DNA from: Desulfuromonas sp.
GTDB taxonomy: Bacteria; Desulfobacterota; Desulfuromonadia; Desulfuromonadales; Desulfuromonadaceae
DNA: 33,860 nucleotides
Assembly (NCBI GenBank): GCA_002869685.1
Contig: PKUE01000015.1
Coordinates: forward strand, 1 to 33,860
Reading direction: 5' to 3'
The notes beneath the pieces were generated by a model. That model did no database searches. It had not been told where the DNA came from and saw only the letters and a program-made list of their open reading frames with translations. The position numbers were made by a program, and so were the translations under genes. This document shows, piece by piece, positions 29,312-32,816 of the stretch. How positions within the stretch are numbered: the stretch's first letter is position 1; every line of letters begins with the position of its first letter.

Positions 29312-29340
29312 GGTGTTTTTTCGGGGCAAAACACCCGAAA
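29312..29340. promoter_or_regulatory. Interleaved inverted repeats, candidate enhancer-binding site
   Basis: GGTGTTTT (29312-29319) and AAAACACC (29328-29335) form an 8-bp inverted repeat with an 8-base spacer. A second one, TTTCGGG (29319-29325) and CCCGAAA (29334-29340), is interleaved with it. The centre lies about 125 bases upstream of the predicted sigma54 start, the usual range for NtrC-family activator sites. An AT-rich stretch lies between, suitable for bending. The role is inferred from position and symmetry. Confidence 0.4.
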
Positions 29341-29424
29341 GTTTTACTTATACCTTCAATAATTATTTTAATGGCTTAATAAAAGACCAGCGATCCAGAT
29401 CACTTATGGTGACATTTTAATTTA

Positions 29425-29440
29425 TGGCACACCCTCTGCA
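29425..29440 (+). promoter_or_regulatory. Sigma54 (RpoN) -24/-12 promoter
   Basis: TGGCACACCCTCTGCA has the invariant GG (29426-29427) and GC (29438-29439) separated by exactly ten bases and matches TGGCAC-N5-TTGCA at all but one of the fixed positions. Transcription would start near 29450-29451 toward the exported-protein gene at 29598. Such promoters need an ATP-driven enhancer-binding protein; none is encoded in this window. Confidence 0.7.
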
Positions 29441-29474
29441 GAAGTGTTTTATCGCAAAATGAACATTCGATTTC

Positions 29475-29543
29475 GGCTGGCCAGCCATCGTCGAAGGCAA
29501 ACTGCCACCATCTTTTAACGGAAAAGATGGCTGTCTTCGATGC
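29475..29543 (+). other. Structured 5' leader of the sigma54-type operon
   Basis: The predicted leader contains the perfect 12-bp palindrome GGCTGGCCAGCC (29475-29486). It also has a hairpin of nine perfect pairs, CCATCTTTT (29508-29516) with AAAAGATGG (29522-29530), around loop AACGG. Outer pairing of TCGAAG (29491-29496) with CTTCGA (29535-29540) encloses that hairpin. No T-run follows, so it is not a terminator. It matches no riboswitch class I can name. It could be an mRNA stabiliser or a protein- or ligand-binding leader. Confidence 0.45.
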
Positions 29544-29597
29544 GAACGACAAGGAGCAGAAACGTTCCCCCCCAACCAGCACGAAGAGGAGAGGTAA

Positions 29598-31034: not shown

Positions 31035-31065
31035 TTTCACTACGCATCAAATATTGGAGGAATCA

Positions 31066-31479
31066 ATGAAACGTTCAAAGATTGTATTATTGGCTCTGCT
31101 GCTGACCTTCGTCCTTGTCGGCATGGCTCAAGCAGGCACCCAAGTCCAGATCAACCAACAGGCTATGGTTAAAGCTGAAATTCAGAATGTAACCCACAAT
31201 ACCGTGCGGGCGGCCGTCAAACTGTTCGGCTACGATGATGCCGGCACCGTCATCGGTCACCTGTGCCAGGAAACCTATCTTGGCGCTGACCGCACCACGA
31301 CACTCGAATTCAACTGGCAGGCTCCGGCCTATGCCACCGGCGTGTACTGGTCCCCCAAAGTAGAAGTTGGCGGTAGCTGTGTCAATCAAGACATCACCTA
31401 CGATCACGACAGCGACAGCGACAGCGACAGCGACAGCGACAGCGACGACCACGACTATTACGACTACTACTACCACTAA
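31066..31479 (+). CDS. Small exported protein with (Asp-Ser)n and Tyr/His-rich tail
   Basis: 137 residues from ATG 31066, chosen because GGAGG (31056-31060) sits five bases upstream and the product then starts with a signal peptide (MKRSKIVLLALLLTFVLVGMAQA). The frame is open further upstream but overlaps the previous gene. Residues 24-110 form a beta-sandwich-like domain with two Cys (HLCQET and GSCVNQ) that could pair. From about residue 113 the tail reads YDHDSDSD and continues as six Asp-Ser pairs, then DDHDYYDYYYH. It is extremely acidic and could bind Ca2+ or other cations, or minerals. No family is recognised. A terminator follows after 21 bases. Confidence 0.75.
   Translation: MKRSKIVLLALLLTFVLVGMAQAGTQVQINQQAMVKAEIQNVTHNTVRAAVKLFGYDDAGTVIGHLCQETYLGADRTTTLEFNWQAPAYATGVYWSPKVEVGGSCVNQDITYDHDSDSDSDSDSDSDDHDYYDYYYH
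31408..31446 (+). repeat. Hexanucleotide tandem repeat (GACAGC)6 plus GAC
   Basis: Six exact GACAGC units run from 31408 to 31443, followed by one more GAC. Each unit encodes Asp-Ser, so gain or loss of units changes tail length without shifting the frame. Identical codon use in every unit points to recent slippage expansion. Confidence 0.95.
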
Positions 31480-31500
31480 ACTGCACCACCCACTGCCTTC

Positions 31501-31536
31501 CCTCCCCCGGCGTCCACCGCGGGGGAGGCTTTTTTT
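31501..31536 (+). terminator. Rho-independent terminator inside the sigma54-type gene group
   Basis: CCTCCCCCG (31501-31509) pairs with CGGGGGAGG (31520-31528) over a ten-base loop and is followed by C and seven T. It stands 21 bases after the Asp-Ser-tail gene and only 11 before the next start codon. The next gene must therefore rely on read-through or on a promoter within the preceding gene. Confidence 0.88.
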
Positions 31537-31547
31537 ACGGAGGGTCC

Positions 31548-32816
31548 ATGTTGCGCAACCAAGAAACACAAGCTGCCGTCGTATTGTACTGCCTGCTGAT
31601 GTTGCTGTTCATCACCATGGCGACCCTCAACCCCACCGCTTATATCTGGCTGACCTATGAAGACCTGCTGGGGGAATGGAGTCAGGTATTCCTGTTCCTG
31701 GCGGCATTGCTGCTCTCCCTGGTTTTGGCCGTGCGCCGCAAAAAATACAGCCCCTTTTTTACCCTGCTGACACTGGCCTGTCTTTACGTGGTCGGCGAAG
31801 AGATCTCCTGGGGGCAGCGCCTGCTCAACTTGAACACCCCGGTTTTCTTTCAGCAACACAACTTGCAGCAGGAAACCAACCTGCATAACTTCATCACCGG
31901 CCCGTTTGATACCGCACTCAAACAGGCCATTGAGATCGTTCTGGCCAGTGCACTGATCACTTTTAGCACCCTGTATGCCCATCCGATCAGCGACCGACTC
32001 CCGGTTTTGGGCGGCATGAAAAGATGGGTGCCACCGCCACCGGGCTATCTGTGGCCTTACTTCTGCACCGCCGCACTGTTTGAACTGCGTATTTTCCGCT
32101 TCAATGAAGCAGAACTGGCCGAAATTCTCATTGCGGCCGGGCTAGTTTTCTACACCTTCCATCATCTGTTCAAGCAGGAACACACCTTGGCTACACGGCC
32201 ACGAAGAAAAGCCCTGGCCGCCGTGTTCGCCTTTGCCGTGGTTGGCGCCATGGTCACCACCGGTCTCTGCTATAACACACCCCGCCTCCACGAAGAGATG
32301 AATGCCCGCATCGATAACGGTATGAGCAAGTTTGCCGATCGCTACGGGCGTTATGGACAATGGCAACACAGTCGCCACCTGTATATGAAGCTGCTGGAAA
32401 AACGTCCGAATTCCGTCGTATTACTGCAACGGTTGGCCTATGCGGAAAAAAAACTCGGCCACGACTTTCAGGCTACCCAAGCCCTGACCGAAGCCATTCG
32501 TCTCGATATGCGCCGCTACAGCCGCGAACCCGGCGATATTGCCGTCAATCTGTCACTGGCGAAATCTTTCATCATTTTAGGCAATGAAGAGCGCCAGTCC
32601 TTCCACCTGCAACAGGCCCTTGATTACGGCTTGCGCCGTGTTCGTCTCGAACCGGCTAACGCCAACGCCCTCTATTGGCTGGGAAGAGCCTATCTCTCCA
32701 GCGGAGACACCGACAAGGCCGTCGAGCAATTCCAACAGGCGACCCTGCTCGATCCCACGGTGTACCGTTTTCAACGGGCGCTCCACGAAGCCCGGCTCAA
32801 GGATCGCTCTGCATAG
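31548..32816 (+). CDS. Polytopic membrane protein with GEEISWGQ motif and C-terminal TPRs
   Basis: 422 residues. About seven hydrophobic helices are visible (near 9-28, 46-62, 70-83, 125-143, 168-181, 190-206 and 222-241). Between helices 3 and 4 lies GEEISWGQRLL (83-93), followed by TPVFFQQHNLQQETNLHN. I recall the same motif pair from a widespread uncharacterised membrane-protein family. After the last helix, residues 262-405 form TPR-like repeats (RHLYMKLLEKRPNSVVLLQRLAYAEKKLG; ALYWLGRAYLSSGDTDKAVEQFQQATLLDP). The TPRs probably bind a protein partner. GGAGGG (31539-31544) precedes the ATG and lies right behind a terminator. It may assist the two exported proteins encoded upstream; that is inference. 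Confidence 0.75.
   Translation: MLRNQETQAAVVLYCLLMLLFITMATLNPTAYIWLTYEDLLGEWSQVFLFLAALLLSLVLAVRRKKYSPFFTLLTLACLYVVGEEISWGQRLLNLNTPVFFQQHNLQQETNLHNFITGPFDTALKQAIEIVLASALITFSTLYAHPISDRLPVLGGMKRWVPPPPGYLWPYFCTAALFELRIFRFNEAELAEILIAAGLVFYTFHHLFKQEHTLATRPRRKALAAVFAFAVVGAMVTTGLCYNTPRLHEEMNARIDNGMSKFADRYGRYGQWQHSRHLYMKLLEKRPNSVVLLQRLAYAEKKLGHDFQATQALTEAIRLDMRRYSREPGDIAVNLSLAKSFIILGNEERQSFHLQQALDYGLRRVRLEPANANALYWLGRAYLSSGDTDKAVEQFQQATLLDPTVYRFQRALHEARLKDRSA

Follow-up and report, generated by a model that had tools for sequence, protein, structure and literature searches.

A conserved pair of exported-protein genes, one of the choice-of-anchor F family, with comparative support for sigma-54 control in Desulfobacterota

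Two neighbouring genes for exported proteins, gene 1 (product p1) and gene 2 (product p2), were found adjacent in 15 Desulfobacterota genomes from more than one class, and within the order all nine genomes with a strong p2 match (9/9) have p2 adjoining p1. Judged by sequence comparison, this is a real conserved pairing around a known protein family, and the pairing apparently has not been described before. Comparative evidence also makes sigma-54 control of the pair well supported. The gene for a third protein, p3, is the next gene in 10 of the genomes that have the pair.

The window, that is the whole stretch of DNA analysed, is a 33.9-kb contig of a 3.1-Mb draft genome (G000; 95% complete) in which an RpoN gene is present. 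The features relevant here are the following.

25933..28980, minus strand: divergent phosphodiesterase, dCache_2-PAS-GGDEF(degenerate)-EAL, 1015 aa, a gene of the genus
29310..29337, no strand assigned: inverted repeat with a GGGGCAAA...CCG core
29390..29403, no strand assigned: putative CRP-like palindrome GCGATCCAGATCAC, kept in congeners
29425..29440, plus strand: sigma-54 -24/-12 promoter TGGCACACCCTCTGCA, with GG at 29426-27, GC at 29438-39 and a predicted transcript start at about 29451
29489..29542, plus strand: leader hairpin region
29598..31034, plus strand: gene 1 (p1), exported choice-of-anchor F protein (NF033657), 478 aa
31066..31479, plus strand: gene 2 (p2), exported 137-aa protein, beta-sandwich plus Asp/Ser/His-rich tail, no family matched
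31501..31536, plus strand: intrinsic terminator between gene 2 and gene 3
31548..32816, plus strand: gene 3 (p3), polytopic membrane protein with C-terminal TPRs
32832..33860, minus strand: DUF748 protein, the other flank of an insertion or loss site

A sequence-only reading of this DNA had proposed a regulated sigma-54 module in which a well-formed -24/-12 promoter precedes two signal-peptide genes and then a membrane TPR protein. The gene layout is as described (29598-31034, 31066-31479 and 31548-32816; the signal peptides of p1 and p2 were judged by eye), and TGGCACACCCTCTGCA is indeed a near-consensus GG-N10-GC element. Its score was reached by 0 of 1000 simulated upstream sequences with matched dinucleotide statistics, and it is one of only 19 places in the 3.1-Mb genome where the strict -24/-12 pattern occurs; the reversed pattern occurs at 2. 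Among relatives, a sigma-54 site of at least 13 bits was found in 20 of 32 upstream regions of family genes versus 3 of 216 control genes, the other genes of the same loci (Fisher p ~2e-18, where several of the 32 family genes are close relatives and not fully independent). The scoring matrix was hand-set from the consensus, so the weight lies on this comparison and not on the absolute score. Of the three control hits, two are kinase genes adjoining a family gene; the remaining one encodes an exported protein and has the same enhancer type discussed below. The p1-p2 unit of one relative, G044, has no sigma-54 site. Taken with the conserved pairing and the linkage to regulators in relatives, the promoter enrichment supports the proposal of a regulated sigma-54 module for exported proteins.

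Within the genus the unit is present in the window and in G007 and G008 among 10 members. This patchy presence, the insertion or loss site between conserved flanks and a decayed copy in G008 could be taken to mean that the unit is a relic or selfish cargo, recently gained and now functionless in the genus, but p1 of the window and of G007 share 95% protein identity with frames and promoter intact in both (the -24/-12 element of G007 is TGGCATAGCCTCTGCA), p1-p2 is syntenic across the phylum, and plasmid tblastn and PHROG scans gave no sign of plasmid or phage origin. I consider a relic highly improbable. The G008 copy of the window unit (L028) is decaying: p1 is frame-broken, and GA stands in place of the -24 GG (TGACAT). 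Joint decay of promoter and gene is expected if the unit is under sigma-54 control, although this is a single case.

What might activate such a promoter is suggested by the relatives, where a histidine kinase and a sigma-54 response regulator adjoin the family gene at eight loci; the kinase at one of these, L023, has a weak PF04392-like periplasmic domain. Many of the loci carry GCAAC-N4-GTTGC palindromes starting about 87-102 bases 5' of the -24 box, often joined by further ones some 160-190 bases 5' of it. An order-wide scan for this enhancer combined with the promoter returned 19 matches in 136 genomes versus 1 for the reversed pattern. Its targets include several of the family genes, members of a second exported family, short genes adjoining the regulator and two genes of G081. 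The second exported family (L167/L179 in G041 and L178 in G107; about 550 aa in G107, containing ..HIFSTNDVMCD..) has the same type of enhancer and promoter. In G081 (L164, L177) the enhancer and -24/-12 element precede two genes: one for a reductive dehalogenase (TIGR02486, 169 bits, cutoff 160), beside which lies a sigma-54 regulator gene, and one for a multihaem cytochrome. Most of the genes found with this enhancer are themselves regulators or further copies of p1, so little about the role of the pair can be learned from them. The regulator subfamily occurs in multiple copies and clearly has several uses.

The paired palindromes met in many relatives are absent from the window, as from G007 and G008, and control of the window unit through the GCAAC-N4-GTTGC enhancer was therefore rejected. 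The closest regulators in the window's own genome have the recognition helix ISQPALSRR or ITQPSLSNR, not ISRQALSKR, and the simplest reading is that a diverged activator serves the window unit, presumably as part of a similar kinase-regulator pair with a diverged site.

The elements upstream of the window promoter hold up only in part. The inverted repeat that had been proposed at enhancer distance is present at 29310-29337, but its arms are not conserved in the congeners G007 and G008, and it can also be read as a terminator-like hairpin. Upstream conservation with these two genomes is confined to the inner GGGGCAAA...CCG core and the CRP-like palindrome at 29390-29403. The core, which starts at about -103 from the -24 box, is a weak candidate for an enhancer site; as a conserved enhancer the 29310-29337 repeat was rejected, its CGGG...CCCG core occurring at 0 of the other 18 strict sigma-54 sites in the genome. 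The CRP-like palindrome, about 30 bases 5' of the -24 box and matched exactly in G007 and nearly exactly in G008, is a possible site for a second regulator. The leader, likewise noticed as structured, does fold, and its inner hairpin shows two compensatory pairs among three congeneric sequences, but the folding is unremarkable (z -1.85). A scan of this leader against Rfam gave zero family matches, the c-di-GMP-I-GGC riboswitch (RF03167) included.

Neither exported product had seemed to fit a nameable family, which proves true of p2 only. In an HMM search p1 matched NCBIfam NF033657 (choice-of-anchor F) at 301.3 bits (cutoff 50) over the full profile (1-307/307). It differs from other members, which carry DGxDNDxDGxxDCxDxxC tails, in being anchorless and paired with p2: its C-terminus, ...VVSITAPTTVTP, has no hydrophobic tail or known sorting signal. 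The HMM itself demands no anchor, which is only implied by the family name. Four cysteines are conserved in p1, and I predict a large secreted, disulphide-containing protein, probably mostly beta; the AlphaFold2 model, built from a 4-sequence alignment, reached a pLDDT of 32, too low to be of use. A sequence search of the PDB returned no significant match to p1 or p2. Of the published papers found to use the phrase choice-of-anchor, none points to family F in its title or abstract.

Searches with family profiles gave no significant match for p2. Its model is a six-strand beta-sandwich (pLDDT ~80-86) followed by a low-confidence tail, and this tail is Asp/Ser/His-rich in 8 of 8 aligned homologues. 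A fold search returned generic immunoglobulin-like beta-sandwiches and nothing else (the top one at Z 8.9, with 2.4 A over 86 residues); a best match this near to background for such folds is uninformative on function. Membership of the MSCRAMM Sdr (Ser-Asp repeat) proteins was rejected, as the tail scored 7-9 bits where the cutoffs are 999 or higher. From its composition, the acidic/His tail of p2 probably binds a divalent metal, and p2 may form a complex with p1 as its partner.

The genes had also been proposed as a unit of three. The p1-p2 pair does stay together, but p3 is cut off from it by the terminator, which G007 has as well, so that two plus one describes the arrangement better. Given that terminator, p3 is probably expressed separately or at a lower level. 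Its membrane part is strongly conserved (GEEISWGQR...HNLQxETNLHN...FNEAE), a PDB sequence search with p3 matched only TPRs, and the protein may aid assembly or export.

The divergent neighbour was thought to degrade c-di-GMP, and on its domains and catalytic motifs phosphodiesterase looks the right call. It has dCache_2-PAS-GGDEF-EAL domains (PF00563, 233 bits) and the motifs FEALVRW, EITE, DDFGTGYS and KLD; the assignment follows from the intact EAL and DDFGTGYS motifs together with a degenerate GGDEF (SSNEF instead). The further suggestion, that this gene and the other three make up one joint regulatory module, fared worse. The EAL gene and the module lie side by side in the window, G007 and G008, but in G001 and G006 the EAL gene is joined to DUF748 with the module absent, at no locus outside the genus does an EAL gene directly adjoin the module, and the terminator parts genes 2 and 3. 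Because the EAL gene stands alone in these congeners, the joint module is largely refuted; I regard it as very unlikely, and the adjacency in the window as incidental.

A cyclic-dinucleotide link does, by the matches found, reappear in relatives by other routes, with the ligand here putative. GGDEF genes lie upstream of a family gene on the same strand at five loci (G279, G432, G485, G504 and one G107 copy). In G044 two tandem c-di-GMP-I-GGC riboswitches (RF03167; L027:7196-7274 and 7315-7393; 66.1 and 61.2 bits, cutoff 59) lie 5' of p1-p2, whereas the window leader has none, and direct reading of the sequence places a terminator-like hairpin and T-run after each. The output of the pair may thereby be coupled to the cyclic-dinucleotide level in several lineages. 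A further riboswitch of this class lies in G026 (L025:15021-15095), about 6 kb beyond p1 and 5' of another gene.

Among known systems the nearest precedent is the PEP-CTERM/exosortase regulon with PrsK, PrsR and PrsT (Haft 2006, PMC1569441; D. vulgaris DVUA0057, PMC3333781). In both, the genes for exported proteins follow long intergenic regions that contain a -24/-12 site and, upstream, a regulator motif; both also have a kinase with an NtrC-type regulator and an associated TPR protein. In Aquincola, PepA is an RpoN-dependent exported protein that, with a TPR protein, is needed for floc formation (PMC9850573). However, p1 and p2 lack the PEP-CTERM tail: the NCBIfam PEP-CTERM models gave zero matches in either protein, and their C-termini were also read directly. 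The exosortase EpsH (TIGR02602) was not found in G000 (the 95% complete draft), nor in G044, G089 and G485, all of which have the pair. The response regulators of relatives reached 269.7 and 377.8 bits against a PrsR cutoff of 502.6, p3 reached 29.5 bits against a PrsT cutoff of 312.2, and the linked kinase and enhancer motif of relatives were not matched to PrsK or the PrsK-system motif. On tail, exosortase and PrsR/PrsT scores, membership of the PEP-CTERM/exosortase system was rejected. By analogy, the unit most likely works like a PEP-CTERM/PrsKR regulon minus the sorting tail.

An envelope, matrix or acceptor-contact role is plausible for the pair. More specifically, I lean towards p1-p2 being a stimulus-induced matrix or surface pair under kinase-regulator sigma-54 control that contacts a substrate or a solid electron acceptor. 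An extracellular signal would switch on a sigma-54 activator, and genes 1 and 2 would be transcribed only then. In relatives, the histidine kinase, which sits in the membrane and has a ligand-binding domain in the periplasm, would signal to the adjoining NtrC-type response regulator, which would bind the paired GCAAC-N4-GTTGC sites and drive transcription from the -24/-12 promoter.

The same products could instead be accessories of extracellular respiration, induced by an acceptor and binding or scavenging a metal or organic acceptor, without being structural matrix. This would suit the metal-binding look of the p2 tail, the related riboswitch class before the G044 unit, and the use in G081 of the same regulator subfamily and enhancer type before a reductive dehalogenase and a multihaem cytochrome. 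Sigma-54-regulated reductive dehalogenase clusters are known in Desulfoluna (PMC7031245), and they resemble the present case in having a sigma-54-dependent regulator gene beside its target, as the regulator subfamily adjoins the dehalogenase gene in G081; they differ in that the window unit has no catalytic cofactor protein. Against this reading, p1-p3 lack haem, Fe-S and flavin motifs, the regulator subfamily serves more than one purpose, and DsbA-like and carboxypeptidase-regulatory-like proteins also accompany members of NF033657, but no redox partner does. An accessory role in respiration is rather unlikely, and the matrix or surface pair remains the preferred reading.

A wider proposal can be put forward tentatively, and as a whole it is doubtful. 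The pair might represent a secretion system of two proteins, neither of them anchored, that has not been described in Desulfobacterota, with a metal-binding-tailed p2 accompanying a choice-of-anchor F protein. It would be a surface or matrix module linked to respiration, running alongside PEP-CTERM/exosortase without depending on it. Its expression might be tied to related inputs by three routes in different lineages: sigma-54 kinase-regulator pairs of the kind that elsewhere control enzymes for respiratory acceptors, GGDEF enzymes encoded nearby, and tandem cyclic-dinucleotide riboswitches. At G485 and G504 (L110:11255-15937; L112) a conserved row of genes precedes p1: a different sigma-54 regulator comes first, then an outer-membrane-barrel-like protein, a PBP-like protein of small size and a GGDEF protein. 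In any case, a named but functionless family gains a constant partner, a predicted activator with its predicted DNA site and a predicted signalling input, all of which can be put to the test in metal- and sulfur-reducing bacteria that grow in culture. Should the pair indeed act on acceptors or at surfaces, these bacteria would have an extra exported-protein system for meeting solids, apart from the PEP-CTERM route.
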